DNA of 64,000 nucleotides, taken from the NCBI RefSeq assembly GCF_012910955.1, contig NZ_WTVQ01000005.1, positions 62,001 to 126,000 on the forward strand, given 5' to 3'. A program made the position numbers and the translations under genes. Below, piece after piece: positions 1-21,792 of this stretch (position 1 is the first letter of the stretch; each line of letters starts with the position of its first letter). Source of the DNA: Aromatoleum diolicum. Lineage in GTDB: Bacteria > Pseudomonadota > Gammaproteobacteria > Burkholderiales > Rhodocyclaceae. The notes beneath the pieces were generated by a model that saw only the letters and a program-made list of their open reading frames with translations, had not been told where the DNA came from and ran no database searches.

Positions 1-262
1 GCACGTACAGCCAGCGCGGGTGATCCAGGCCGCCGGCGAATTTGGCGACAGACGTGCCCGGTGCCGCATGCGGCATAGTGCCGGCCGGCCAGCCCACGGC
101 GGGCGCAATGTGTACGGTCGGAAGCAGCGTCCGCTGCGGGGGTGGCAGCGCGGGTTGTGGGCCGGTGCCGGCCGATACCGGCAGCGTGGCCATCTCGCCA
201 CAGCCTGCGAGCGCCAGAGCCGCCGCGCCAATCAGGAAAATGTGTGCGCGCGTAAGCATCAT
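1..262 (-). CDS. PQQ-type sugar (sorbosone-like) dehydrogenase lipoprotein, N-terminal fragment
   Basis: The reading frame starts at a double ATG (262/259) and runs off the left edge, so only about 87 residues are visible. The N-terminus has a lipoprotein signal with the lipobox LALAGC. A Pro-rich linker follows, then VAKFAGGLDHPRWLYV, the first blade of the soluble glucose/L-sorbosone dehydrogenase beta-propeller family as I remember it. Such proteins oxidise sugars in the periplasm with PQQ as cofactor. The substrate cannot be told from the fragment. The frame contains no stop, and the match to the family N-terminus is good, but the catalytic part lies outside the window. Confidence 0.72.
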   Translation of the reverse strand, partial: MMLTRAHIFLIGAAALALAGCGEMATLPVSAGTGPQPALPPPQRTLLPTVHIAPAVGWPAGTMPHAAPGTSVAKFAGGLDHPRWLYV

Positions 263-587
263 TCTGACCGCAGCGCGGCGAATCAGTATCGGACGGTTCA
301 CGGCGACTCCTCAGAAAGTGGAAAACCGGCACGAATGCCGTCAAGCCATCGGAGAGCGGCCCCGCACAACTCATCCGGCGCGTGAACAGCGTAGGAGCAG
401 ACGCTGCGGAATTCCGTGCGCTGGCGAACACAGGGAGCTTGTTTCCTCTGTGTCGCTGCTGCCGTGCGGGAGTGCGGGCATGAGGACATGGAGATATATT
501 GGCAGTCCACAACAAGGAAATGCGCTGTTACCGGGTTGGAGTAAGATTCTTGTCCGGTCATGCCGCGCGGTGCGGATAGGGAACTTT
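263..587. other. Intergenic region between divergent genes
   Basis: This 325-bp stretch separates the divergent sugar dehydrogenase and cheB-cheR hybrid genes. It carries one copy of the recurring 20-bp palindromic element (413-432). I see no convincing small gene. An in-frame extension of the cheB-cheR frame upstream of 588 has no domain character and is treated as non-coding. Confidence 0.5.
413..432. promoter_or_regulatory. Recurring palindromic element, copy 1
   Basis: The site reads TCCGT-G-CG-CTGG-CG-A-ACACA and fits the window-wide pattern TCTGT-N-CG-N4-CG-N-ACAGA. It lies 156 bp upstream of the cheB-cheR GTG start and about 150 bp upstream of the divergent dehydrogenase. Confidence 0.45.
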
Positions 588-3542
588 GTGCCAAACAGCA
601 AGGTAGCTGAACCGTCCGATATCGGGACTCCCGTGATTACCGCCACTACAAGCGCCCTCCCCGACATGCATGCAGACAGATTATGCCCCGGGAATTTTTC
701 CATCGTGGGCATGGGCGCTTCTGCCGGCGGCCTGGAAGCCTTCGAACAGTTCTTCCGTCGGATGCCCGCGGATAGTGGCATGGCTTTCGTGCTGATTCAG
801 CATCTCGATCCGAACCACGCCAGCCTGCTCACGGAAATCCTGCAACGCGCCACCACCATGCCGGTGATCGAAGCCACGGATCAACTGATTGTGGCCCCCG
901 ACCGCGTGCACATCATTCCGCCCAATCGCGACATGGCGATCTTTCACGGCGCGCTGCAGTTGAGCGTTCCGGATCAGCCGCGCGGAATGCGCATGCCCAT
1001 TGACGCCTTTCTGCGTTCCCTCGCCGAAGACCAGGGAGAGAAGGCGGTCGGCATCATCCTGTCCGGCACGGGCACCGACGGCACCCTGGGGCTGCGTGCC
1101 ATCCTGGGTGCCGGCGGCATCTCGCTGGTGCAGGAACCTGCCAGCGCCCGATACGACGGCATGCCTGCCAGTGCCATCCGGGCGGGCTATGCGACCGCTG
1201 TGCTTGCCGCGGACGCCATGCCGCACGCGCTACTGGCGGGCATCCGCCGTATTGCCCGGCGTCAGGAAGATCGTCCGGCGGCGGCGCCCGTGGGCACCAT
1301 GAGCCGCATCCTGATGCTGTTACGCACCGCGACCGGCCATGACTTCTCGCTCTACAAAAAGAGCACCATCGGCCGCCGCATCGAGCGGCGCATGGCGCAG
1401 CACGACATCGAGGACATGGAGATTTATGCCCGCTACGCCAAGGAAAATCCCGCCGAGATACAAACGCTGTTCAAGGAACTGCTGATCAACGTCACCAGCT
1501 TCTTTCGCGACCCCGAAGCCTTTGTCGCCCTGAAGCGGGAGATCCTGCCGCGGCTGCTGCGGGACAAACCCGATGCCTATGTGCTGCGCATCTGGGTGGC
1601 AGGATGCGCCACCGGCGAAGAAGCCTATTCAATCGCGATCCTGCTGCGCGAATTGATGGATGAGAGCAAGCGGGAATTCAAGGTTCAACTCTATGCGACG
1701 GATCTTGACGATGATGCCATCGTCGTTGCACGGGCCGGCCTGTACCCGCCGAATATTGCCCAGGACGTTCAGCCTGACAGGCTGCAGCGCTTTTTTCTGA
1801 AGGACGATGCGGGTTATCGGGTAAGGAAGGAAATTCGCGAAATGGTGGTGTTCGCCGTCCAGAACGTCATCAAGGACCCTCCCTTCACCAGGCTCGACCT
1901 GCTGTGTTGTCGCAACCTGATGATCTACCTGGAGCCGGAACTGCAAAATCGCCTCATCCCGGCCTTCCACTACGCGCTCAAACCAGGCGGAATACTGTTT
2001 CTCTCGCCCTCGGAAAGCATCGGCAATCACACCGGGCTGTTTACGGCGCAAGACCGCAAATGGAAGTTCTATCGTGCCACCCACTCCGTCGCCTCTGCCC
2101 GCGCGGTGTTGGCCAGTGGCTTGTCCTGGGCTGCGGATAGCGGGGGCAAGGCGCCCGAGGAAGTCATGAAGAAAGCCAGGGAAACCAATTTTGCCGAATT
2201 GACCCGACGCGTGTTGCTTCAATCCTACGCGCCGGCCTCGGTCGTGACGGACCTGAAGGGCAACATCCTCTATGTTTACGGTGACACCGGAAAATTTCTG
2301 CGTCCCGCCCCCGGCCGGGCCACGCTCAACGTGGTAGAGATGGCGCGCGAGCCGCTACCGCTCGAACTGCGTGCGGCCATCTTCCACGCCGCCAGCCAGG
2401 GAGGGGTGACATTGGGCCGGGAAGTCGCCGTCACCACCGATGGCGAGGTGGAGACGGTGAGTTTCAGTCTGCGCCCCGTGCCGGACACGGACGCCGGCGA
2501 GGCCGTGCTGGTGATCAGTTTTCAGGAAATGTCCGGTGCCGCACCCGGCACGCGCAAGCGAAGCAAGCGTGAGTCGACTTCGCTCGCGAACGAAAGGATC
2601 GAGGCGCTCGAGCGTGAGCTGACCTACACGCGGGAGAACCTGCAGGCCACCATCGAGGAACAGCAGGCGTCCAACGAGGAGATGCAGTCCACCAACGAAG
2701 AACTCCAATCGAGCAACGAAGAACTCGAGACCTCCAGGGAAGAGCTGCAGTCGATCAATGAAGAGCTGGTGACGGTGAATGCCGAGTTGCAAGCCAAGAT
2801 CCAACAGCTGGCCGGCATGCAGAACGACATGAAAAACCTGCTCGACAACGTGAGCGTCGGCACGATCTTCCTGAATGAGCAATTGGTTATCCGCCGCTTT
2901 ACGCGCGAGGCAGCGCGGGTCTATCGCCTGATCGGCTCGGATGTGGGGCGCCCCCTGAGCGACATCAAGTCGGATCTGGAGGGTGAAGACCTGCTCGCCC
3001 GCGCACAGACTGTCCTCGACAGCCTGATTCCGTATGAGTGCGAACTTCGCACGGTTAGTGGTGTCTGGTATCTGGCGCGCATAATGCCTTATCGGACCGT
3101 AGACAACGTCATCGAGGGGGTGGTGCTGACCTTCACGGACATCAGCAAGCGCGTCGAGGCTGAAGCGGCGGTACAGACGTCGCGGGATCTGGCCGAAGGC
3201 GTCGTCGATACGGTGCGCGAACCGCTGCTGGTGCTGGACGGGGCCTTGAAAATCGTCTCCGCCAGTCGTTCGTTCTACCGGAACTTCCGCGTCGCGCCGG
3301 AAGATACCCTGGGCCGTCCGCTCTACGACGTCGGCAACCGCCAGTGGGACATCCCCGAACTACGGGAACTGCTGGAAACCATTTTGCCGCGCGACCGCAG
3401 TTTTGAAGGCTATGTGGTCGAACAGGTCTTCCCCGCCATCGGCCGGCGCAGGATATCGCTCGATGCCCGCCGCATAGCAGGCAGGAGCGGCGACACCCAG
3501 CTGATTCTGCTGGCAATGCAGGACGCCGAAATGTCTGCGTGA
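588..3542 (+). CDS. CheB-CheR-PAS hybrid chemotaxis-like protein
   Basis: The protein has 984 residues. A CheB-type methylesterase comes first, with catalytic Ser45 in GASAGG, His72 in QHLDPNH and Asp164 in GTGTDG. A CheR methyltransferase follows (about 238-495; SAM motif WVAGCATGEEAY; LLCCRNLMIYLE). Then comes a long Glu/Gln/Asn-rich coiled coil (about 668-750) and two PAS-like segments (about 750-984). There is no histidine kinase or GGDEF domain. GTG 588 is preferred because AGGGAA lies just upstream; ATG 666 is the alternative. No chemoreceptor, cheA or cheW is near. Relatives are often paired with a PAS-GGDEF-EAL gene; here that gene is 24 kb away and linked through a duplicated junction. 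Confidence 0.9.
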   Translation: MPNSKVAEPSDIGTPVITATTSALPDMHADRLCPGNFSIVGMGASAGGLEAFEQFFRRMPADSGMAFVLIQHLDPNHASLLTEILQRATTMPVIEATDQLIVAPDRVHIIPPNRDMAIFHGALQLSVPDQPRGMRMPIDAFLRSLAEDQGEKAVGIILSGTGTDGTLGLRAILGAGGISLVQEPASARYDGMPASAIRAGYATAVLAADAMPHALLAGIRRIARRQEDRPAAAPVGTMSRILMLLRTATGHDFSLYKKSTIGRRIERRMAQHDIEDMEIYARYAKENPAEIQTLFKELLINVTSFFRDPEAFVALKREILPRLLRDKPDAYVLRIWVAGCATGEEAYSIAILLRELMDESKREFKVQLYATDLDDDAIVVARAGLYPPNIAQDVQPDRLQRFFLKDDAGYRVRKEIREMVVFAVQNVIKDPPFTRLDLLCCRNLMIYLEPELQNRLIPAFHYALKPGGILFLSPSESIGNHTGLFTAQDRKWKFYRATHSVASARAVLASGLSWAADSGGKAPEEVMKKARETNFAELTRRVLLQSYAPASVVTDLKGNILYVYGDTGKFLRPAPGRATLNVVEMAREPLPLELRAAIFHAASQGGVTLGREVAVTTDGEVETVSFSLRPVPDTDAGEAVLVISFQEMSGAAPGTRKRSKRESTSLANERIEALERELTYTRENLQATIEEQQASNEEMQSTNEELQSSNEELETSREELQSINEELVTVNAELQAKIQQLAGMQNDMKNLLDNVSVGTIFLNEQLVIRRFTREAARVYRLIGSDVGRPLSDIKSDLEGEDLLARAQTVLDSLIPYECELRTVSGVWYLARIMPYRTVDNVIEGVVLTFTDISKRVEAEAAVQTSRDLAEGVVDTVREPLLVLDGALKIVSASRSFYRNFRVAPEDTLGRPLYDVGNRQWDIPELRELLETILPRDRSFEGYVVEQVFPAIGRRRISLDARRIAGRSGDTQLILLAMQDAEMSA

Positions 3543-3649: not shown

Positions 3650-4054
<405 letters not shown>

Positions 4055-4864: not shown

Positions 4865-4888
4865 AAGTGTTTCACCGATGAAACACTT
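4865..4888. promoter_or_regulatory. Perfect palindrome, candidate enhancer (UAS) for the sigma-54 activator
   Basis: AAGTGTTTCA and TGAAACACTT face each other across CCGA: ten perfect base pairs. The centre is about 208 bp upstream of the -24 element at 5085, a usual distance for enhancer sites bound by Fis-type activators. There is no T-run, so it is unlikely to be a terminator. That the regulator at 9688-11022 binds here is inference. Confidence 0.5.
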
Positions 4889-5084
4889 CGGTTGCGTGGC
4901 GCCATTCTCATGAAAATCGTTACCAATCAAATGCTTGACGCCTACTTTTCGAGTCGTGCCGGAGCCATATCGGCGTTCACCTGTACAGGGTCTGAACATA
5001 TTGTCCTTCAGCCCCTCGCCTGCAAAGGGTGCGCAGATGGAATAGTCCCTTTTGAATCAATCCCTTGAAGTGACTTTTTACGCG

Positions 5085-5099
5085 TGGCACAGCTCTTGC
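5085..5099 (+). promoter_or_regulatory. Sigma-54 (-24/-12) promoter
   Basis: The sequence TGGCAC-AGCTC-TTGC matches the RpoN consensus (TGGCAC-N5-TTGC) at every fixed base. It lies 60 bp upstream of ATG 5159, so the transcript should start about 48 bp before the gene. An activator with the sigma-54 contact motif GAFTGA is encoded in the same locus. Confidence 0.85.
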
Positions 5100-5158
5100 G
5101 CGATTGGGGCCACCGGGCTCGGCATGGTGCCGGCTTTGGCTCTCGAAGGGGAATTGCG

Positions 5159-6550
5159 ATGAGGAAGACTCTGATTTCAGCCGCGATCGGGCTGGCCTTT
5201 GGTGTCGCCGGACAGGTGTGGGCCAATCCCGTGAATACCGTAAGCGATGTCACAGACACCAACACGCAGACCGCCAGTGCAAGCGCAACGCAGGCGGGCG
5301 ATACCAGCCCGCAGGCGAATGAGTTCTCGACGGCGACGCAGGACAACTCGACGAGCAGTACCGACAATTCGAATCAAGGCAACAACAGCTCCACCAACAG
5401 TGCCGACAGTTCGAACCAGGGTAACGACAATTCGACGAGCAGCACCGACAACTCGAACCAAGGCAACAACAGCTCCACCAATAGTGCCGACAGCTCGAAC
5501 CAGGGTAATAACAGCTCCACCAACAGTGCCGACAGCTCGAACCAGGGCAACGACAACTCGACGCAGAGCAGTAGCGCCGATGGCGACAACCGCGACAACG
5601 ATGGCATGGCGACGGCAGAGGGCCATGGCAGCACGGCGGCGAATAATGGCTCGACCTCGACGGCCAATTTCACTAACGCGTTCAACACGACCCACGTAAT
5701 GGCCCTGTCGTCACTGACGGGTACGGTCAGTGGCGTCTCCGTGAGCGGTCTTGGCAACGTCGCGACGAACAATGGCAATGCCAACGGCGGCGCGGGTGCG
5801 GCCGGCGGGGCTGGCAGCGGAGGTGACGCGACGGGCGGAGCGGCAGCAGGTATGGGTGGTGCCGGTGGTGCCGCATCCGGTGCTAGGGGTGGAGCAGGCA
5901 GCAATGGCGGTGACGGTTCAGTTGGCACGGCGACGACCGGCGAGGCGAATGGAGCCACCGGCGAAACCGGCGGAAATGCCGGTCCTGCGAGGGCCAACGG
6001 TGGAGCAGGCAGTGGGTCGGTTGGAGATGCGACGGCCAGCAACGGTTCGTCCGGCGGGACGGCTACGGTTACACCGTCGGTTGATCCGGGTACCGCGACG
6101 GCGACCGGTGGGAGTGGTACCGCGGGCGATTCGACGGCTGGCGCCAGCAGCAGCACCGCGACCGGCGGGAATGGCGGCACCGCCAGCAACACCGCCGGAG
6201 CCGGTGGCAACGGTGGTACGGCGACCAGCGGCAATGCCTCGACAGGCAGCGCAGCAGGCGGCAATGGCGGCAGTGGCGGCAGTGGCGGCACCAGCACGGC
6301 GGGTAACGGCGGAGACGGCGGTACGAACACCGGAGGAATGGCGACCGGCGGTGCCGGTACGGGTGGCGAAGGCGGCATGGGCGGAGCCGGCGGCACGGCG
6401 GCGGTCGATGCGGGGACCTTCAACATGTCCAATACGATCAGCAACAGTTTCACAAACGGCGCCGGCATCATCGTCAATGCCCAGAACAGCGGCATCGGCG
6501 CACTCGTGCAGCAAAGCGTGAATGTGCAGGCAAACCTGACTGTCAGGTAA
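5159..6550 (+). CDS. Secreted Ser/Asn/Gly-rich repeat protein, candidate fibre subunit
   Basis: The product has 463 residues and no Cys. A signal peptide ends near VWA (residue 22). Residues 62-131 are five 14-residue tandem units of the type NSSTNSADSSNQGN. A non-repetitive segment (about 165-205) follows, then about 210 residues of very Gly/Ala/Thr/Asn-rich sequence that resembles mycobacterial PGRS domains. A C-terminal 40-residue segment contains AQNSGIGALVQQSV. ATG 5159 has the ribosome site AAGGGG. It is the first gene after the sigma-54 promoter and precedes a C39 peptidase operon, so it is probably the exported main subunit. It is not a recognisable FapB or FapC homologue, and the amyloid role is inference. 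Confidence 0.8.
   Translation: MRKTLISAAIGLAFGVAGQVWANPVNTVSDVTDTNTQTASASATQAGDTSPQANEFSTATQDNSTSSTDNSNQGNNSSTNSADSSNQGNDNSTSSTDNSNQGNNSSTNSADSSNQGNNSSTNSADSSNQGNDNSTQSSSADGDNRDNDGMATAEGHGSTAANNGSTSTANFTNAFNTTHVMALSSLTGTVSGVSVSGLGNVATNNGNANGGAGAAGGAGSGGDATGGAAAGMGGAGGAASGARGGAGSNGGDGSVGTATTGEANGATGETGGNAGPARANGGAGSGSVGDATASNGSSGGTATVTPSVDPGTATATGGSGTAGDSTAGASSSTATGGNGGTASNTAGAGGNGGTATSGNASTGSAAGGNGGSGGSGGTSTAGNGGDGGTNTGGMATGGAGTGGEGGMGGAGGTAAVDAGTFNMSNTISNSFTNGAGIIVNAQNSGIGALVQQSVNVQANLTVR
5342..5551 (+). repeat. Five 42-bp tandem coding repeats
   Basis: Five consecutive units encode 14 residues each, in two flavours (DNSTSSTDNSNQGN and NSSTNSADSSNQGN) in the order D-N-D-N-N. Nucleotide identity between units is high, so slippage could change copy number in frame. 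Confidence 0.85.
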
Positions 6551-6617
6551 TTCGCACGCGCAGAGCCGGGGGAACCAACCTTTCCCCCGGTTTCATCGGC
6601 AGTCGAGGAGTCAAGCC

Positions 6618-7004
6618 ATGAAACAGGTACTGCACTTGCTCGCCTTGGGCATCGCGCTGGCCCTCATGTACGGCACGATTGTGCCTGCGCGGGCCGATGA
6701 CTTGGTGATGCTGGGTGATGCGGAGGAACTTGCGGTGCAGGGGCCGGCATCAAGGCTGCTGGATGGACCGGCGCTTGATGAGGCGGCGCTGTCCAGTCTG
6801 CGGGGCGGCGCCGATACGCATAGCAGTGAAATACGCGCGATCGGCTCGGTCAGCGAAGTTTCGGTTTCGGATGCCGCAACCGGTCACAACCTCATTACCG
6901 GCGGTGCGCTTGCCGGTGCGAGCGGCGTGCCGATGTTCATCCAGAACAGTGGAAACGGGGTCCTGATCCAGAACGCGGTGATCCTGAACGTCGAAGTGAA
7001 TTGA
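6618..7004 (+). CDS. Small secreted protein with LRGG motif (Fap-like accessory or minor subunit)
   Basis: The product has 128 residues. The signal peptide ends near PARA (26). A short acidic region leads to LDEAALSSLRGG (residues 53-64), which looks like a double-glycine leader: hydrophobic residues at regular spacing ending in GG. The mature part ends with MFIQNSGNGVLIQNAV, similar to the C-terminus of the large repeat protein upstream. GGAG precedes the start. The stop is one base from the GTG of the C39 peptidase, so they are translationally linked. I infer that the peptidase cuts after LRGG. No named family recognised. Confidence 0.78.
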   Translation: MKQVLHLLALGIALALMYGTIVPARADDLVMLGDAEELAVQGPASRLLDGPALDEAALSSLRGGADTHSSEIRAIGSVSEVSVSDAATGHNLITGGALAGASGVPMFIQNSGNGVLIQNAVILNVEVN

Positions 7005-7005
7005 C

Positions 7006-7704
7006 GTGGCGACGATGAAAGTCCGCACGTGCTTATCGATCGTCATGCTGCCCTGCTGCCTGTCGGGGCTCGCGCTCGCCGAGGGGCCCGCGATACTCGG
7101 CCCGTCGGGGAACACTTATGCGGTACCGGTGACGAGCCTGAAGGGCGCGCGCTTTGTGTCGACGCTACGCCAGCAATATGACTTCAGTTGCGGCTCGGCC
7201 GCGGTCGCGACCTTGCTGACGCATCATTACGACCTGAAAGTCGACGAAGTCGAGGTCTTCAAATACATGTTCGAGCGCGGTGACCAGGCGAAAATTCGGC
7301 GCGAGGGTTTTTCCATGCTCGACATGAAGCGCTATCTCGACGGCAGGGGCTTCCGCGCGGAAGGTGTGCGCGTGTCGCTCGACCAACTCGCCGATGCTGG
7401 CGTGCCAGGGATCGCGCTGGTGAAGGAGAACGGCTATTCGCATTTTGTCGTGGTAAAGGGCGTGCGGCCAGGCAGAGTGGTGATCGGCGACCCGGCCATG
7501 GGCACGCGGGTGATTGATCGGAACGACTTCGAGAAATACTGGACCAATGGCATCCTGCTCGTGATCAATAACAGGGTCGACCTCGCCCAATTCAATCGCG
7601 AACAGGACTGGCGCGTGCGACCGGCGGCTCCGCTGGGTGATGGAGTCCGGGGGGGCAACAGCATGGATGTGCTGCTGCTCCGGCGCGGTCCGATGGACCA
7701 TTGA
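7006..7704 (+). CDS. Periplasmic C39-family cysteine peptidase (FapD-like)
   Basis: The product has 232 residues counted from GTG 7006; ATG 7015 is an alternative start. A signal peptide ends near ALA (25). The C39 fold is clear: oxyanion Gln56, catalytic Cys62 in QYDFSCGSAA, His146 in YSHFVVV and Asp162 in IGDPAMG, all present. C39 peptidases usually cut after Gly-Gly; in bacteriocin exporters they are fused to an ABC transporter, but here the domain stands alone, as in FapD. Genes on both sides encode proteins with LRGG motifs, the natural substrate candidates. Its own C-terminal part contains GDGVRGGNS (211-219), which might be a processing site. It overlaps no gene, with 4 bp to the next. 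Confidence 0.9.
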   Translation: MATMKVRTCLSIVMLPCCLSGLALAEGPAILGPSGNTYAVPVTSLKGARFVSTLRQQYDFSCGSAAVATLLTHHYDLKVDEVEVFKYMFERGDQAKIRREGFSMLDMKRYLDGRGFRAEGVRVSLDQLADAGVPGIALVKENGYSHFVVVKGVRPGRVVIGDPAMGTRVIDRNDFEKYWTNGILLVINNRVDLAQFNREQDWRVRPAAPLGDGVRGGNSMDVLLLRRGPMDH

Positions 7705-7708
7705 GCGG

Positions 7709-8254
7709 ATGGCGATGAACAGCGTACGGCCGGGACAACTCGCCGGACTGATTGCCCTCCTCGTGGTGGGGGCCGGGACGCCGCGGCTCGCCCTGCCGGT
7801 TGAGCAGGACGCCTTGGAGCGCGAGCGCTTCGAGCAAATCACCGTTGTCGATGACGAGGTGCTGGATGGTCTGCGGGGAGGATTCGAAACACCGGGCGGG
7901 CTGATGCTTTCCTTCGGCATCGAGCGTCTGGTCTATATCAATGGCGAATTGTTGAGCACCACCAGTCTCAACGTGGCGGATCTCGGCAGGTTCGTCGGCG
8001 GCAGTGCGGACGCTGGCAGGATGCCGACGCTGGGAAGCACCGTGGGCCTGATCCAGAATGGGCCGAACAATACATTCGATGCGAGCATCATGGCCTCCGG
8101 GGCCTTTGCGACGGTGATCCAGAACACCCTGAACGACCAGACGATACTGTCCGTCACGACGATCAATGCAACGGTCAACAGCATGGATATGATGCAGGCC
8201 AACCGCATCGGCGACTCGCTCAGAAGCACCGTTAACAGCGCGCTTTTCAGATAG
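7709..8254 (+). CDS. Secreted LRGG-motif protein (FapE-like position)
   Basis: The product has 181 residues from ATG 7709 (ATG 7715 is possible). An N-terminal hydrophobic signal (about 10-28) is followed by an acidic stretch and VVDDEVLDGLRGG (46-58), the same double-glycine-like motif as in the 6618 gene. The mature part is rich in Asn, Thr and Ser, with repeated IQN elements (GLIQNGPNN, TVIQNTLNDQ) and alternating polar/hydrophobic residues typical of beta-structured fibre proteins. It starts 4 bp after the C39 peptidase. By position it matches FapE, but the sequence relation is not established by eye. Confidence 0.78.
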   Translation: MAMNSVRPGQLAGLIALLVVGAGTPRLALPVEQDALERERFEQITVVDDEVLDGLRGGFETPGGLMLSFGIERLVYINGELLSTTSLNVADLGRFVGGSADAGRMPTLGSTVGLIQNGPNNTFDASIMASGAFATVIQNTLNDQTILSVTTINATVNSMDMMQANRIGDSLRSTVNSALFR

Positions 8255-8272
8255 TCTCATTGTGAACTTTCC

Positions 8273-8299
8273 GGCAGGCTGCCCGGGGGCAGCACTGCC
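8273..8299. terminator. Hairpin between convergent genes
   Basis: GGCAG-GCTGCCC faces GGGCAGC-A-CTGCC, a ~12-bp GC-rich stem with a tiny loop, in the 57-bp gap between the convergent secreted-protein and barrel genes. It has no T-tract, so it may be a weak or bidirectional transcription barrier. Confidence 0.4.
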
Positions 8300-8311
8300 G
8301 ATTGCGCTGCC

Positions 8312-9637
8312 TCAGAGCGTGAGTGGCATGCGCAGGGTGAGCTGGATGTCGGGCGCGTCGTCGGTGAGGCCCGCGCCGATGGATAGATTAAGCGTCTTGC
8401 CCGAATTGAGCCGGTAGGAGTAGCCGAGCAACAGGGTTCCCAATTGTGACCGGACCGAAGTCGTCGGCCGCCTGCCACCTACCTTGACCTTGCCGACCGA
8501 CAGATGATCGTAGCCGATGCTGAACGACGATCGATCATTCAGCGCAAGGCCCATGCCGAAGTTGAAGCCGACTGCGCCGCCCGGCTGCACTTTACCGAGA
8601 TCGAGGTCACCGTCGTTGGTCTTCTGCTTTACGTTGTCGCGCGCGAAGCTGTACTGATAGCTGACGCCGCCAAAAAATACCACCGGGTCAGAAGGAAGGA
8701 GCACGGTGATTCCTGGCTGAACCGTGAAAAAGCCGGAGCCAGTCGGCATCTCGGTTTGCAGGCCCGTGCCGGTGGTGCCGCGTATCGTGCGGTCCACCTT
8801 GACCTCGAAGGGGTCCCTTCCCGTACGGGTCTTGAATCGCAGGGAGGCAATGTAGTAAGGATCCTCCACACCACCGTCATTGAGCTGATAACGCCCGGTG
8901 AGTTCGATGTCGCCGAGGCCGTGCCCATCAACATCAAAGGAGGTATCGGCCGCGGCGCCCGCACCGACCGGCCGGCTTACGCTGGTATCGGTTCGATATA
9001 CATACGGAATTTTCGCTTCGAGTTCGAAGCGGTTGGTAATGCCGCGGCGCACGGTCAGTGCGCCGATGAAGGTATCGCTCTTCACCTCACGCACGTCGAT
9101 CAGTCCGATCAGGATGGCCGGGATAATCGTGTAACCGACCAGCGCGATGCGATTACTGGATGAGTGGGCGTATTGCAGCGAGGGTTCGACCAACCACTTG
9201 CCTGGAGGAGTGAGAACCCCCGGTTGCTCAAAGATCGGCGCCACCGCAGGCGGCCGGTTTTCAGTGCGGCGTTCGGGGGGCTTTCCGACCGGTTTCGGCG
9301 CCTGAGCCACCTGCTGTGCGGGCTGTGCTGCGGTGACCTGGGCAGTTGTCGGGGTTGACGGTGCGGCCGCCGCTCCCGCCGGTACCGTCCCCCGCCCCCT
9401 GACGCTGGCGATGTCGAGGGTCCGCTGCAAGTCGTCGAGCAGCATCTGTTGCTTCGCAAGGTCGCGATTGAGCGATTCGATCTGACGGCTTTGCTCTTCC
9501 ACCCTCCGTTTAAGGTCCGCCATCGAAGTGCTAAAGGTGCCTTCTTCGGCATGGGCCACGGAGCCGGAGGTGGCGATCACAAGGCCGGCAAGACTGCAGC
9601 CCAGCAGCCGTCCTTGACGATGTGCCAGTGCGTTCAT
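8312..9637 (-). CDS. Outer-membrane beta-barrel with N-terminal coiled coil (FapF-like secretion channel)
   Basis: The product has 441 residues. A signal peptide ends near AHA (30). A coiled coil follows (about 36-78: LKRRVEEQSRQIESLNRDL), then a Pro/Ala-rich linker (about 80-140) and a ~300-residue region of alternating beta strands that ends in LTLRMPLTL. The same order (coiled coil, linker, barrel) is known for FapF, which exports Fap subunits. AAGGGGGGAAAC is an excellent ribosome site. It lies 50 bp downstream of the sigma-54 activator on the same strand and converges on the substrate genes. The N-terminal helix could plug or trimerise the pore. Confidence 0.82.
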   Translation of the reverse strand: MNALAHRQGRLLGCSLAGLVIATSGSVAHAEEGTFSTSMADLKRRVEEQSRQIESLNRDLAKQQMLLDDLQRTLDIASVRGRGTVPAGAAAAPSTPTTAQVTAAQPAQQVAQAPKPVGKPPERRTENRPPAVAPIFEQPGVLTPPGKWLVEPSLQYAHSSSNRIALVGYTIIPAILIGLIDVREVKSDTFIGALTVRRGITNRFELEAKIPYVYRTDTSVSRPVGAGAAADTSFDVDGHGLGDIELTGRYQLNDGGVEDPYYIASLRFKTRTGRDPFEVKVDRTIRGTTGTGLQTEMPTGSGFFTVQPGITVLLPSDPVVFFGGVSYQYSFARDNVKQKTNDGDLDLGKVQPGGAVGFNFGMGLALNDRSSFSIGYDHLSVGKVKVGGRRPTTSVRSQLGTLLLGYSYRLNSGKTLNLSIGAGLTDDAPDIQLTLRMPLTL

Positions 9638-9687
9638 GTTTCCCCCCTTATTCTCGTGTTCGACAGAAACCCGGCACCCGTAGGCGA

Positions 9688-11022
9688 CTACAGGATGATC
9701 TTCAGGCGATCGATCATGCGGTACAGGGTGACGCGGGAAACGCCCAGCTGGCGCGCCACTTCCGATACGTTGTTCTGGTATTTGTTCAGGCTGCTCACGA
9801 TGACGTCCTTTTCAACCGTGGAGCGGACCTCATTCAGCGTGGGATTGGTGCCACCCTCGAGGTCAGGTGAAGGAATGCCCAGATCCGCGGCGCTGATCAG
9901 CTTGCTTTCGGTCATGATCATCGCGTGCTGCACGCGGTTGATCAGCTCCCGAACGTTGCCCGGCCACGGGTACTCGCACATCGCATGGAGCGCCTCGGAA
10001 CTGAAGCCTTTTACCTGCGGACTTTTCTGGTGCCGGTTTTCGTTGAAGATGGTGGTGACCAACAGCGCAATATCCTGCGCGCGCTCGCGCAACGGTGGCA
10101 CCTTGATATGCAGTACGTTTAGCCGGTAAAAGAGATCCTCGCGGAACCGTCCTTCGGCGACTGCACGGCCCAGATCCACATGAGTTGCGGCGATCACTCG
10201 CACGTCCACCCGCATGCGCGCGGTCGAGCCGACCCGGACGATGGTCTTTTCCTGCAGAAAGCGCAGCAGGTTCGCCTGCAGGTCGAAAGGCAGATCGCCG
10301 ATTTCGTCCAGGAACAACACCCCCTGATTGGCTGCCTCGATATTGCCGATTTTGCGTTGGTTCGCGCCGGTGAAGGCTCCGCGCTCATGCCCGAAAAGCT
10401 CGGACTGAATGAGATTGGGCGCAATGGCACCACAATTCATCGTTATGAACGGCGCGTTCGCGCGCTCCGAATGGTGATGGATGGCGCGCGCAACCAGTTC
10501 CTTGCCGGTGCCGGACTCGCCGCCAATCAGCACCGGTGCATTCACCGTCAGGATCTTGTCGAGTTGACGGTACAACTGGACCATTTTCGGGCTGCGTCCA
10601 GTCATTCCGTACCGGCCGATGTCGTCCTCTTGTTCGACGATGCTCTTGCAGATCAGCGCCTTGCCGTGGGCGTGACCCAAGGTCATGATCAGGCGATCGC
10701 GGTCCAGCGGCAGCGTGTGAAAGTCATGGAAGCTGCGCAGAACCATTGGTCCAAAGGTTTGATTGCGCAGCAGTTCTCGACCCAGAATCGCGATCCATTC
10801 GACATCGTGCCTGGCGAGCAGGGATTCCAGTTCGCGGGCCGACCATGATTGCGGTGAAGTAAAGGCCACCAGGCCGACCAACGGGCAACGTATCCCCAAT
10901 GCCCTGTTTGCTTCCTCAATTGTCGAAACGACATGGAAATCCCAATCGGGGAGATCCAGGTCATCCAGTGCAGTGCGGACAGCGCCGTTCCGGTCGAGTA
11001 ATACTCCCTTCCGCTTTTCCAT
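9688..11022 (-). CDS. Sigma-54-dependent transcriptional activator with degenerate receiver domain
   Basis: The product has 444 residues from ATG 11022. Residues 1-125 look like a receiver fold without the phospho-acceptor Asp (strand PLVGLVAF), as in the VpsR-type group. The AAA+ domain follows: Walker A GGESGTGKE (167-175), sigma-54 contact loop GAFTGA (215-220), Walker B VLFLDE (235-240) and R-finger region FREDLFYRLN. A Fis-type helix-turn-helix (418-438, EVARQLGVSRVTLYRMI) ends the protein. It should activate the -24/-12 promoter at 5085 and perhaps its own operon with the barrel gene. The signal may be a small molecule, not phosphorylation. A longer frame upstream (to 11214) has no domain character. 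Confidence 0.92.
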   Translation of the reverse strand: MEKRKGVLLDRNGAVRTALDDLDLPDWDFHVVSTIEEANRALGIRCPLVGLVAFTSPQSWSARELESLLARHDVEWIAILGRELLRNQTFGPMVLRSFHDFHTLPLDRDRLIMTLGHAHGKALICKSIVEQEDDIGRYGMTGRSPKMVQLYRQLDKILTVNAPVLIGGESGTGKELVARAIHHHSERANAPFITMNCGAIAPNLIQSELFGHERGAFTGANQRKIGNIEAANQGVLFLDEIGDLPFDLQANLLRFLQEKTIVRVGSTARMRVDVRVIAATHVDLGRAVAEGRFREDLFYRLNVLHIKVPPLRERAQDIALLVTTIFNENRHQKSPQVKGFSSEALHAMCEYPWPGNVRELINRVQHAMIMTESKLISAADLGIPSPDLEGGTNPTLNEVRSTVEKDVIVSSLNKYQNNVSEVARQLGVSRVTLYRMIDRLKIIL

Positions 11023-12866: not shown

Positions 12867-15800
12867 TTATTTCGCATCCACGCGCACCTCGACCATGTGT
12901 TCCTGGTGGTCATCAACCAGGGGAATCGCCTTGTCGGGTCGCTCGACGCCATCCACAGTCACGCTCGTCACGCCGCTTTCCCGATCGTCACCGACACGCA
13001 TTTGCGAGACGCCGATGTGATAGACGGTGTCCCGATAGCGGTAGTGGATCTTGTACGCGTGCCAGTCCGCCGGCAGGCAGGGCGCGAGATGCAGGGTGTC
13101 GCCCGCCAGCCTCAGGCCCAGCAGCGATTCCATCACCAGCCGATACATCCAGCCGGCAGAGCCGGTGTACCAGCTCCAGCCACCGCGGCCGATGTGCGGC
13201 GTGAGTGCGTAGACGTCGGCTGCGACGACGTAGGGTTCCGCCTTGTAGGTGGCGATCCCCTCCGCGGAAAGTCCGTGATTGACCGGGTTGATCATGGCCA
13301 ACAGCTCCCAGGCACGCTCGCGCTCGCCCAAGGCGGCAAACGCCATCGCCGCCCAGATCGCCCCGTGGGTGTACTGGCCGCCATTCTCGCGCACGCCCGG
13401 CACGTAGCCGCGGATGTAGCCGGGATCCAGATTCGACTTGTCGAAGGGCGGATCGAGAAGCTGGACGAGCGCGTAGTCGCGGCGCACGAGCCGTTCGTCA
13501 ACGGATTTCATGGCCATGCGCGAACGCATCTCGTCGCCCGCCCCGGACAGCACGGACCAGCTCTGCGAGATCGAATCGATGCGGCATTCCGTGTTGCCGG
13601 CGGAGCCAAGCGGCGTGCCATCGTCGAACCAGGCGCGGCGGTACCACTGGCCGTCCCAGGCGTGCTGCTCGATGTTCCGGCGCAACTGCCCCCCCTCCTC
13701 CACGCACAGATCGGCGAAGGATGCATCACCGTACGCTCTCGCCACCCCGGCGAACTGTCTCAGCACTTCGCACAGGAAGAAGCCCAGCCAGACACTCTCG
13801 CCCTTGCCCTTGATCCCTACCAGATTCATGCCGTCGTTCCAGTCGCCCGCGCCGATCAGCGGCAGGCCGCGTTCACCGAAGCGCAGACCGTGGCGGATGG
13901 CTCGCACGCAGTGCTGGTACAGGCTGTCCACGTCGACGGAGCGGCCGGGCAGGTCATAGTAGGAGTCGTCCTCGGGATTGACCGGGCGGCCCTCGAGGAA
14001 GTGCACGGCTTCGTCCAGTACCCCCGTGTCGCCGGTACTCGTCACATAGCGGCACACCGCCAGCGGTAGCCACAGGTAGTCGTCCGAACAGCGCGTGCGC
14101 ACCCCCCGGCCTGCCGGCGGATGCCACCAGTGCTGCACGTCGCCCTCCTGGAACTGACGGCTCGCGCACAACAGCAGATGCGCACGCACCAGCCCGGGCT
14201 CGGCATGGATCAGTGCCATCACATCCTGCAACTGGTCGCGGAAGCCAAAGGCGCCACCCGACTGGTAATAGCCGCTGCGGGCCCAGATGCGACACACCAG
14301 CGTCTGGTACATGAGCCAGCCGTTGGTCAGCACGTTGACCGACGGGTCGGGCGTTTCCACCTGAACCGCGCCGAGCGTGTGCTTCCAGTGCTGCTGCACC
14401 GTTGCGAGCGCACCGCGCGCGGCCAGGGCGCCGCGGAAGCGCTGCACGAGCGTGCCGGCGTCTTCGACGTTGAGCCCGACGCCGAGCCGGAAGACGACTT
14501 CGCGCTCCTGCCCCTCAGCCAGATCGAAACTCACCTGGATCGCGCCGCAGGGGTCCAGCGCCGCGCCCACTTTGCCGGACAGGCGCGTGCGGCTCATTGC
14601 CGCCGGATTTCGCAGCGTGCCGTTGCGCCCGAGGAATTCCGTGCGGTCCCCGCTCAGGTTGCGTGTCGGTTCATCCACATCGAAGAAGGCCACCCGCTCG
14701 GCAAACTCCATGCTGTAGGGGTTACGCGCGTAGAGCGCACCGCTGCGGGGGTCGATTTCGGTGCTGACATGCATGGCGGATTTCGCCCCCAGATCCCCCA
14801 GCACCCACTCGACGTAGCCGGTCACGGAGAGCCGGCGCGCACGCCCCGATTCGTTTCGCATTTTCAGCACCGAGAACTTGACGGGGGCGTCCAGCGCCAC
14901 GAAAACGCGCAGTTCCGACCAAATGCCTGCGGATCGGGTCTCGAAGACGCTATAGCCGAATCCGTGCCGGACGACGTAGGACGCATCGGCACGGGCCGGC
15001 AGCGGTGTGGGCGACCAGAACTGGCCGGTCTCTTCGTCGCGCAGGTACAGGGCTTCGCCGCTCGAATCGCTCACCGGATCGTTGTGCCAGGGGGTGAGAC
15101 GGAATTCGTGCGCGTTCTCGCTCCAGGTGTAGGCGACGCCGCTCTCCGAGACGATCGTCCCGAAGTGGGGATTCGCCAGAACGTTCACCCACGGCGCCGG
15201 AGTCACCTCGCCGGGCGCGAGCGCAATGACGTATTCACGCCCGTCAGGGGTGAATCCGCCGAGCCCGTTGAACAGGATCAGATCGCGGCGCGGCGGCTCG
15301 GCGGCGGGAGCGCCTTCGGAACGCTGCGCGCGACTCGGCGCAAAACGCGGCGGCCGTGGATCCGCAAGGGTGCGGCGGTCGAGCTGCTCCACCAGTGTGC
15401 CCCGGCCGTCGGAAATGATGGCACGCGCAACCGACTGGAGCAGGATGCGGTCCTCGCCGGACATCTGCTCGGCGGGCCGCACGAAAATGCCCCCCGGCCG
15501 ATCGATCACGCTCGCCTCGATACCCGAGGCGATCAGCCCCATGATCTGTTCCTGCAATCGTTGCCGGTAACCGGCATGCTCCTCGTTCCAGATCACCAGG
15601 TCCACCGCCAGCCCCTTCAGCCGCCAATACGCGTGGGCCTGCACGAGTTGGCGCACGAGATCGATGTTGGCCGAGTCGCCGATCTGCAGCAGCACGATCG
15701 GCAGATCGCCCGAAATGGCGTATCCCCACAGGCCCGACTGTCCGCGGCGATTCTTGATGAGCACCGCCGGGTCGGCGCGCAGCGAGGCGTTGGCGTGGAT

Positions 15801-18800
15801 CACCGAGCTGGCCAGGCGCGCATGCAGTTGCGAGTCGGCTTCGCTGGCATTGAGCTGCCGCAGCACCACCTGGCTGTGGGTCCAGGTCAGGTCGAAGACG
15901 CGATCGGCGAGATGGCGGTCCTGGTATTTCTCGACCAGGCTCACGGCCATGTCGCGGGTGTCACTGATGCCCGAGACGATGTCGATCGTGACCGACTGTT
16001 CCGGATCGAGCGTGATGCGATGACGGATGGCGACGACCGGATCCAGCACCGAACCGTCGGTGCCCGAGAGCGGGCCCGGGTCGCTCATCGCCAGCGGATT
16101 GGCGGCACTTCTCGTACGGCCGATGAAGCGCAGACGATCGGTCTCGTAGGACACCTCGCCGAGCTTCGCACCATGCACCGCCATCAGATGCAGCATCCAC
16201 GGCGCCTGCTCGCCCGCCGAACGGGGCCGGCGCGTGCACAGGATCGCGCACCGCTCGTGCAATATCTCGGTCTGCACGAAAAGATTGCTGAAGGCCGGAT
16301 GCAGCGCGTCCGCGGCGGGAGGTGCGATCACCACTTCGGCGTAACTCGTGACCTCGATTTCCCGGCGCTGTTCCGACCGATTGGTGATGCGCACCCGCCG
16401 AAGCTCGATATCGTCCTCCGGCGACACGACGATCTCGGTGTAAGTCTCGAAATCGCCATCGTCCGCGCCATCGCCGGTGCACACCGGGTCGCGGCGGCGA
16501 AACTCGGCGCGCCCTTCGGAGAAGATCGCCTCGTACGTCTCCGGTCGCTTGAGCGTCGGCTGATAGGCGGTCGACCAGAACTCGCCGCTCGCCCCGCTGG
16601 TCACTTCGCGGACGTAGCAGAACGTGCCCCAGTTGTCGCACGTGCCGTCTTCGCGCCAGCGCGTGACGGCGAGGTCCTTCCAGCGGCTGTAGCCGCCGCC
16701 CGCGTTGGTGACCATCACGTGGTAGCGGCCGTTCGACAGCAGCTGCACCTCGGGTATCGGCGTGTGCGGGGTACTGAACACCCGAATCTGCGTTTCCGCG
16801 GCGACCGACGTCGCACGCACGTCGGACAGCTGCGCCGTGTGCGCAAACAAGGCCGTGGCTTTCGGGATGCGCTCCTGCAGCAGCAGCATGACTGCCTGGA
16901 ACAAACGGTCCGACTCGAAGCGCCGCTGCATCGGGCGATCCAGCACCAGGTAGGCCAGCGCCAGCAGGCTCATGCCCTGGTGGTGGGCCATGAAGGAGCG
17001 CACCAACACGTGCGATTGCCCGCGACGCTGGCGTGCCGGCGTGTAGTCGATCGCCTCGAAGAAGCCGAATTTGCCAAGGAAGCCCTCGGCCGCGAGTCGC
17101 TGCAGATTCAGGCACGCCTCCTCGGGCGCCACCATCAGCGCGAGCACCGAGGCATAGGGCGCGATCACCAGATCGTCGGCCAAGCCGCGCTTGAGTCCCA
17201 GCCCCGGCACGCCGAAGGCGCGGTACTGGTAATTGAGATGCATGTCGACGGTGTTGTAGCCGGATTCCGAGATGCCCCAGGGGACGCCGCGCTGGATGCC
17301 GTACTCGATCTGTCGCGCCACCGCCGCCTTGCAGGTCTGGTCGAGCAGCGTATTGTCGTACGTGGGCATCACCAGCAGCGGCATCAGGTACTCGAACATC
17401 GAGCCGCTCCACGACAGCAGGACCGGTTCGCCACCGGTCGCAGTGAGCAGGCGCCCGAGGGTGAACCAGCTTTCCTGCGACACTTGCCCCTGGGCAATCG
17501 CCACGAAACTACATAGGCGCGCCTCGGACGCCAGCAGGTCGTAGTAACTCGAATCCAGTCGGCGCTCTTCGACGTTGTAACCGATGGTCAACAAGTGTCG
17601 CGTCTTGTCGAACAGGAACTCATAGTCCATCTGCGCCAGTTCGCCGCATTGCAGTGCCAGGCGTTCGATGGCCGCAATCCTGTCTCGCGCGCGGGCGCGC
17701 CCTTCCGCGAGGGATTGCTGCAGTTCGCCAAGCCAGGCGAGTTGCGCCTGCGTCCACTCGCGTTGCGCCGACGTTGTCTCCGTATCGCCCCTCGCCAGTT
17801 GGCGCAGGGTCGGGATGCCGGGGGCGTCGACCAGCCTGGCGAAATGCGCCTCCATCCCCCCCGGTGCTGCCGGCAGCACCAGCCACGGCGCGAGAAAGCA
17901 CAGCTCGTCCAGCGCCTCTCGGCATTGCCGGGCAAGGGCCTGCGCCCACACCTGCGCTTCCGCCCCCTTCGCATCGCGCTCGGGCACCGGACCGTCCCTG
18001 ACATCGGCGCTGACGACGAACCGCTCGGCGAGTTCGGCGGCCCCGGTCGCCAAGCGCATCAGGGTCAATCGCGCCGCTGCGAGGGTGCCCGGAGGCGCCG
18101 CGGACACCGCTTCCAGGGTGTTCCTGAACTCCGCCAGCGGGCCCGCAGCCGCCCTGTCCATTGCGTCGGCAAGGTCCGCAAGTATCCTGAGCGTGTCGCT
18201 CAAGCCGTCGAATAGCCGCCCTGCGATCACCTTGTCATCGGCCAGCGCGAGCAGACCCGCACGCAAGGTCAGCAGGTGGCCGGCGAGGTTGCCACTGTCC
18301 ACCGTCGAGACATACAGCGGCGACAAGGGCAGCAGCGTCTGCGTGTCGTACCAGTTGTAGAAGTGCCCCCGGTGCCGCTCCAGCCCGTCCATCGTACGCA
18401 GGGTATTCGTCGTGCGCTCGATGAGTTGTCCGGCCGGGATGTAGCCGAAGTCGTACGCGGACAGATTCGCCAGCAGCGCCACCCCGATATTGGTCGGCGA
18501 CGTGCGATGCGCGACCGCGGCAACGCGATACTCCTGATAATTGTCCGGCGGCAGCCAATTGTCGTCCGCACCGACCAAGGTGTCGAAGAAGGCCCAGGTG
18601 CGGCGCGCCAGCGCGCGCAGGAACAAGATCTGCTCGGCCGCCAGGGACACCGTGCGGCGCGCCAGCGGGCGGCTGATCCACCATGCGATGCCGGGCGACA
18701 CGAACCACAGCAGCAGAATCGGCCCCGCCACCCCCAGCACCACCGGCTCCGCAATCACCAGATAGATCGCCGTCACGGCGGCAATGACGGGGCCGATCCA

Positions 18801-21716: not shown

Positions 21717-21792
21717 GCCGGCGTTCAATTCAGGGGCCTTTTTTCAGAAAATGAAATCTCAGTGAAACGCATCACGGCGCACGAGCGACCGC

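Follow-up and report, generated by a model that had tools for sequence, protein, structure and literature searches.

The locus at positions 4867–11022 of a 64-kb stretch of Aromatoleum diolicum DNA (contig NZ_WTVQ01000005.1; "the window" hereafter means this whole stretch of 64,000 nucleotides) is, judged by homology and gene order, a real, conserved and widespread sister branch of the Fap functional-amyloid export system, not Fap itself, and the surface protein that it appears to export is a different, glycine-rich one. Genes for a fibre-type protein, a small protein (s1), a FapD-class C39 peptidase and a second small protein (s2) lie on the plus strand, and genes for a FapF-like barrel protein and an activator are convergent on the minus strand. 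An earlier model-made reading of the letters without database searches (the sequence-only reading) had described most of these parts, and a check of the open reading frame (ORF) list and the sequence located every one of its features as given. Absent from it were a perfect palindrome, double-glycine leaders in s1 and s2 and the wide distribution of the system. The parts of the locus are:

4867–4886, no strand: palindrome GTGTTTCA-N4-TGAAACAC, a probable enhancer and candidate activator site, about 200 nt 5′ of the sigma-54 site
5085–5099, plus: sigma-54 (−24/−12) promoter TGGCAC-N5-TTGC, by pattern match
5159–6550, plus: fibre-type protein, 463 residues, exported-type, low-complexity, Cys-free, Gly/Ala/Ser/Thr/Asn-rich; proposed fibre or matrix subunit
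5342–5562, plus: tandem-repeat linker of the fibre-type protein, about five copies of a 14-residue (42-nt) unit
5654–5809, plus: middle conserved block of the fibre-type protein (...LTGTVSGVSVSGLGNVATNNGNANGG...), matched by a hidden Markov model (HMM) in 53 of 60 fibre-type proteins
6398–6547, plus: C-terminal conserved block of the fibre-type protein (...AGTFNMSN...QNSG...LVQQSVNVQANL.V)
6618–7004, plus: s1, 128 residues, with signal-like stretch, double-glycine leader and C-terminal module
7006–7704, plus: FapD-class stand-alone C39 peptidase, 232 residues, with signal-like N-terminus (Cys62, His146, Asp162, Gln56)
7709–8254, plus: s2, 181 residues, in the fapE position, with signal-like stretch and leader
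8312–9637, minus: FapF-like outer-membrane channel with signal, coiled coil, Pro/Ala/Gln linker and barrel
9688–11022, minus: sigma-54-dependent activator with VpsR-like N-terminal domain

Residues 131–439 of the 8312–9637 protein match the FapF crystal structures 5o67, 5o65 and 5o68 in a PDB sequence search (best E 8.5e-36), and the NCBIfam FapF model matches it at 1.9e-51 (175 bits, under the curated cut-off of 700). What the sequence-only reading called a coiled-coil, linker and β-barrel protein is thus, by sequence, a FapF homologue. The 7006–7704 protein is likewise assigned by sequence as a FapD-class C39 peptidase: the NCBIfam FapD model matches it at 3.4e-43 (147.5 bits, under the curated cut-off of 330), and Peptidase_C39 is its sole Pfam match above cut-off, with no fused ABC transporter domain. 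Its ORF starts with GTG at 7006, with an ATG at 7015 as alternative, and its N-terminus would place the enzyme in the periplasm. Among 123 distinct peptidases, known Fap included, Cys62 and Gln56 are each kept in 122 and His146 and Asp162 in all 123.

Of 250 genomes sampled from the window's order, 27 have FapF-like genes, and the genome of the window is one of these; 18 of the 27 carry the window's branch and six known-type Fap, two genomes being in both lists. A scan of named genomes gave at least 530 relatives, of which the best 80 by FapF match were kept, so that close relatives are over-represented; among these 80 the branch occurs in Aromatoleum, Thauera, Polaromonas, Rhodoferax, Variovorax, Massilia, Cupriavidus, Pandoraea, Pseudoxanthomonas and others. 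Plasmid records add Cupriavidus metallidurans CH34, a Photobacterium, a Vibrio and the alphaproteobacteria Croceicoccus and Polymorphobacter. The branch is found mainly in Betaproteobacteria, with some Gammaproteobacteria. Relatives are not independent of one another, which holds for every count given here.

The gene order fibre–s1–FapD–s2, with FapF nearby, recurs across the branch. The 123 distinct peptidases define 102 branch loci and 21 known Fap loci. In the 102, s1 is present in 98 (looser patterns) and a recognised fibre-type protein in 86 (HMM and C-terminal pattern joined, after removal of s1 proteins, which the fibre HMM also matches). Narrower sets gave fibre-type proteins in 60 and then 73 of the 102 loci, and the 60 proteins serve for the motif, Cys and block counts given here. 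FapF is present in 102 of 102, a figure that is not independent since nearly all loci were collected via FapF. All five genes occur in 73 of the 84 branch loci that have more than 5.5 kb of upstream sequence. Hence both a FapF match and a conserved synteny of the C39 peptidase with the repeat protein, the absence of which had been set beforehand as refuting the sequence-only reading, were found, and its Fap-type export logic is supported by the FapF and FapD homology together with the synteny.

HMM and pattern recognised no fibre-type protein in a handful of loci, among them that of Vibrio and both from alphaproteobacteria, one of which (Croceicoccus) has a Ser/Asn/Asp repeat protein in the place of the fibre gene. 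Two variant arrangements were also seen: in one locus (L182, 1488–6870) the fibre–s1–C39–s2 block occurs twice, head to tail, with s1, C39 and s2 equal in length and score and the two fibre-type proteins differing in length, and on the Photobacterium plasmid (L149, 5123–6850) two matches to the fibre C-terminal HMM flank s1. Peptidase ORFs shorter than 150 residues were left out of the counts, as were five loci (L057–L061) that have C39 and FapF and in which the next gene is FapF or ambiguous. In L059, L060 and L061 the gene 3′ of C39 is FapF itself, and their peptidases form a separate FapD clade; in L057 and L058 the C39 and FapF-like pair is followed by a protein of 544–561 residues with LTK[LI][KR]GK near its N-terminus.

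It is possible, if rather doubtful, that the locus is a diverged ordinary Fap operon in which the repeat protein is FapC, s1 is FapB and s2 is FapE. The gene order around fapD-fapE-fapF is equal in both, and the N-termini of s2 and FapE, which have the same gene position, share the leader and some 37 columns (HHalign 85.7% over 37 columns), although the FapE model NF058559 misses s2. FapC and FapB usually contain three Fap repeats of about 39 residues. The Fap-repeat HMM used here comprises 124 repeats from 20 known-type loci, three to four in each of 40 proteins and one in two more. It matched no fibre-type protein of the branch at E ≤ 1 and one s1, present in two copies of the same genome, at E 0.55. 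The NCBIfam FapB, FapC and FapE models found no match among the window proteins, whereas they match a Pseudomonas-type control, FapB above its cut-off and FapC below (164 of 195 bits). Compared as profiles with the Fap repeats, the s1 module scored a probability of just 47%, with 1 of 100 column shuffles as high, the fibre block 2.9% (3 of 100) and s2 0.3% (13 of 100). The likeness of s1 to Fap repeats is thus suggestive and that of the fibre block not significant, and given such weak profile scores we do not claim a relation of the fibre module to Fap repeats.

The peptidase phylogeny also argues against a diverged Fap operon. In a FapD tree of 63 rows, in which 37 of the 102 peptidases of the branch were placed, some picked for breadth and the others at random, known-type Fap forms a single separate clade (support 100/97) and the branch forms one group (76/94). 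Moreover, three genomes (G235, G279 and G333) have FapD genes from each of the two branches. In G333, one stretch (L171) holds two known-type fapD-fapE pairs. A further genome, G134, has the branch and, elsewhere, a FapF gene beside a Fap-repeat protein, with no FapD within the stretch fetched there.

The two small secreted proteins noted by the sequence-only reading lie at 6618–7004 and 7709–8254, both with signal-like stretches, and neither has a usable Pfam, NCBIfam or PDB sequence match. After the signal-like stretch each carries a bacteriocin-type double-glycine leader, L-x-x-x-R-G-G, which reads L-S-S-L-R-G-G in s1 (residues 58–64) and L-D-G-L-R-G-G in s2 (residues 52–58). According to passages of two papers, C39 domains recognise leaders by hydrophobic residues at −4, −7, −12 and −15 and by a Gly-Gly end, which in some cases is Gly-Ala or Gly-Ser (PMC7018657, PMC10885120). 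The window s1 and s2 fit hydrophobic −12, −7 and −4, G-G at −2/−1 and a helical leader, and AlphaFold places a short helix directly before the RGG in each (residues 55–61 of s1, 49–55 of s2), in an s1 model that is mostly unstructured and an s2 model with several predicted strands.

This leader is conserved. The gene 3′ of the peptidase contains [LM]xxxRG[GRK] in 98 of the 102 branch loci and in 19 of the 21 known-type Fap loci. Among background ORFs (mechanical six-frame ORFs) the motif occurs in 235 of 6518, and among shuffled N-termini in 26 of 2200; several ORFs per locus were allowed while the background is per ORF, and the contrast is therefore somewhat flattered. A narrower count with a 500-nt limit and redundant peptidases gave 110 of 134 C39 ORFs, the main count using unique peptidases and a wider limit. 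The s1 leader is found in 93 of 102 branch loci by a looser pattern, as used for the count of s1 genes, while the register counts use 77 s1 proteins. A crude test detects a signal-peptide-like stretch in 76 of these 77 and in 111 of 117 s2 and FapE proteins. With −7 fixed by the search pattern, the register count covered −4, −8 and −12: position −12 is hydrophobic (Ala, Tyr and Trp counted) in 97/98 s2, 75/77 s1 and 19/19 FapE, and position −4, counted likewise, in 86/98, 40/77 and 15/19, respectively. All 98 branch s2 proteins counted end the leader in Gly (90 of 91 in an earlier, narrower count), and all 19 known-type FapE proteins counted end it in Arg or Lys. Alignments of 52 and 44 rows were drawn from motif-bearing proteins (the window first, the rest from L067–L146), so the invariance of RGG in them is partly by choice. 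In four loci (L067, L070, L071 and L076) a long additional region precedes the RGG motif of s2 and includes a common stretch PPAELLA[LI]A.WP. We propose from these sequence patterns that L-x-x-x-R-G-G is the recognition and cleavage site of FapD, and thus that s1 and s2 would be cut after the double glycine.

An unlikely alternative is that L-x-x-x-R-G-G serves as a docking or secretion signal for FapF and that FapD has another target, such as the linker of FapF. Known FapE ends in RG[RK], odd for a C39 substrate, where Gly, Ala or Ser would be the last residue, and this counts against a cleavage site, as the motif might then be a docking signal; Rouse et al., in part of their paper, also discuss cleavage of the FapF linker (PMC5557850). 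Set against docking are the register of C39 recognition positions with a helix before RGG, the true Gly-Gly in all 98 branch s2 proteins counted, and the near absence of the strict motif from the other cargo, in which it occurs in 1 of 60 fibre-type proteins (59 lack it) and 2 of 40 FapB and FapC proteins. On the side of the proposed cleavage, passages of the same paper on Pseudomonas sp. UK4 report that secretion needs the active Cys of FapD and that FapE is the sole Fap protein without peptides from its mature N-terminus; that peptide gap spans about 70 residues and so does not fix the site (PMC5557850).

The fibre-type protein begins with ATG at 5159 and contains 104 Gly, 71 Ala, 68 Ser, 61 Thr and 57 Asn; the claimed 463-residue Cys-free repeat protein was confirmed, with its tandem repeats at 5342–5562. 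It is laid out as a signal peptide, variable Ser/Asn tandem repeats, the conserved middle block, a variable Gly-rich stretch and the conserved C-terminal block, which is related to the C-terminal module of s1 (HHalign 94.6%, 7.3e-8). This plan of conserved blocks between variable linkers appears to resemble that of FapC. Beyond ORF residue 25, Cys is lacking in 45 of 60 fibre-type proteins and numbers one to six in the other 15, at least some of these Cys residues probably lying in wrongly extended N-termini. The protein has no Pfam or NCBIfam match, and its PDB matches are at chance level only (E 1.7 and worse). The sequence-only reading took it for a different, unrelated-looking fibre subunit; difference agrees with the failure of the Fap-repeat HMM and NCBIfam models to match it, whereas unrelatedness to FapC does not follow, given a weak profile similarity to Fap repeats. 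A fibre or matrix role is proposed from its sequence.

The claimed sigma-54 promoter holds, in that the site at 5085–5099 is the single match to TGGYAY-N5-TTGC in the 64 kb on both strands. The pattern occurs upstream of 30 of 72 fibre genes (30 of 72 also with the tighter TGGCAY-N5-TTGC) vs 24 of 1897 control ORFs. The palindrome, of which 0.08 matches are expected in shuffled windows even with three mismatches allowed, recurs, when up to three of its 16 positions may differ, upstream of 16 among 59 fibre genes (a count that includes the window), vs about 0.7% of 1180 random 600-nt stretches from the same loci. Both enrichments fit an enhancer-bound sigma-54 activator. The 9688–11022 protein, whose VpsR-like domain was identified by Pfam and whose relatives adjoin fapF in Pseudomonas-type Fap loci, is probably the one that binds the palindrome, an identity we infer.

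We consider it likely that the locus works as a sister system to Fap secretion, in which a C39 peptidase cuts the s1 and s2 leaders and a FapF-like channel gives exit to a fibre-type matrix. The VpsR-like activator, probably at the palindrome, would turn on the operon of fibre-type protein, s1, FapD and s2, and the four products would enter the periplasm via Sec. There the FapD-class peptidase would read the double-glycine leaders of s1 and s2 and cut after R-G-G, and the cut small proteins and the uncut fibre-type protein would leave through the FapF-like channel. Outside, s1, with its fibre-type C-terminal module, may seed or cap assembly, the FapE-like s2 may be an anchor or an initiator of secretion, and the fibre-type protein would form the surface matrix, its conserved blocks as core and its PGRS-like and Ser/Asn stretches as variable linkers.

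Several observations weigh against this mechanism or the assignments behind it. The fibre-type protein is of low complexity and matches no amyloid model. The strict sigma-54 site stands in just 30 of the 72 loci, and the FapF-like gene lies here on the strand opposite to the operon, which weighs on co-expression. The FapD tree supports the branch at just 76/94 and places two long-branch Fil-like rows near it. As to the leaders, the s2 motif is missing in four branch loci (L073, L080, L101 and, at a contig end, L126) and the motif is missing in two known Fap loci; position −4 of s1 is hydrophobic in just 40 of 77 proteins, and −8 is seldom acidic in s1 and s2. AlphaFold confidence is modest (s2: predicted local distance difference test, pLDDT, 71.3 and predicted template modelling score, pTM, 0.48; s1: pLDDT 65.1 and pTM 0.24), and a Foldseek search with the s2 model gave no matches at E ≤ 0.001.

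That the small proteins are the true cargo, bacteriocin-like or signalling double-glycine peptides leaving by a C39–FapF exporter with the repeat protein as accessory, is very unlikely: the leaders of s1 and s2 and the nap island of Neisseria, with double-glycine peptides, C39 peptidase and FapF homologue (PMC11798529, in part), would suit it, but s1 and the repeat protein have a C-terminal module in common, s2 has several predicted strands and sits at the fapE place, and the repeat protein is the first gene 3′ of the promoter and is present in 86 of 102 loci.

Compared with Pseudomonas Fap (fapABCDEF), the branch has a homologous channel and peptidase, the fapD-fapE order, a sigma-54 activator of the same family as that adjoining fapF in Pseudomonas-type loci, and an s2 with the leader register of FapE. 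It differs in that no FapB or FapC repeat proteins are recognised, the leader ends in Gly-Gly where FapE ends in Gly-Arg/Lys, s1 is an extra leader-bearing protein and the branch FapD falls outside the known-Fap clade. No gene of annotated size separates the fibre gene from the sigma-54 site, and the FapA model finds no match among the six window proteins scanned; fapA is frequently absent from known Fap too, as stated in part of PMC3792158.

Similar parts occur in other systems. The gonococcal nap island (NapP, NapF and double-glycine peptides) also brings together C39, a FapF homologue and GG-motif peptides, but in the portion of the report at hand the small peptides are said to drive autolysis and a repeat protein is unmentioned (PMC11798529). 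In the putative Fil pilus system of Acinetobacter (FilA-F; NF050077–NF050079), FilB and FilC match the window C39 and barrel proteins (NCBIfam, 1.7e-32 and 2.9e-16), and in two loci the FilA/DUF6160 protein beside the C39 gene starts with D-D-x-x-L-x-x-x-T-G-Q after a signal-like stretch; its leader, however, ends in Gly-Gln and the cargo families are others, and no window protein that was scanned matches FilA or DUF6160 at E ≤ 1. A DUF6160 protein is also carried by L057. PCAT transporters of type I bacteriocin export have the C39 fold and a double-glycine leader with hydrophobic −4, −7 and −12, whereas the window peptidase is a separate protein, not fused to an ABC transporter, that has a signal-like N-terminus of its own, and its putative substrates have a signal-like stretch before the leader. 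The FilA element and the Nap island suggest, as we infer, a common logic of two leaders, of which Sec would use the first and C39 the second. We lean slightly towards a broader proposal, that stand-alone periplasmic C39 peptidases with FapF-type channels (Fap, the branch, Fil and Nap) form one export class in which proteins exported by Sec bear a second, bacteriocin-type leader whose removal in the periplasm licenses passage through the outer membrane, that the branch is a new and widespread fibre or matrix system of this class, and that the same leader is the FapD site in FapE.

The substrate of FapD is stated as unresolved in passages of PMC5557850 and PMC6173800, and a 2025 review, in part, describes FapD as thought to process the FapE N-terminus and the periplasmic region of FapF (PMC12822426). 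The true Gly-Gly of the branch made the matching FapE element visible and points to an exact candidate residue for the FapD cut, a question for the whole Fap family. The fapD-fapF pair itself is already known: parts of Dueholm et al. regard FapD and FapF as likely members of larger families (PMC3792158), and parts of a review note fapD-fapF pairs in five further phyla (PMC6173800). Neither the cargo set of the branch nor an RGG site in FapE did we find described in a literature search of open-licence papers. A 2025 survey, by its section 2.1, kept only clusters with a Fap repeat (PMC12392863), which the HMM does not find in the branch, and would thus leave the branch out. As the branch occurs in 18 of the 250 genomes sampled from the window's order, its own among them, and many named Betaproteobacteria carry it among the best 80 of at least 530 relatives, a biofilm component may have gone uncounted.

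Rfam and tRNA scans of the 64-kb window gave no matches. Just upstream of the locus, on the minus strand (3694–4002), lies a gene whose short, lipoprotein-like product bears a GPP/GST repeat of collagen type (Pfam Collagen, 1.3e-9). Further neighbours are a CheB-CheR-PAS fusion protein (42–3542, plus) and a cyclic-glucan-synthase-like protein of 2953 residues with GH94 domains (12867–21728, minus).

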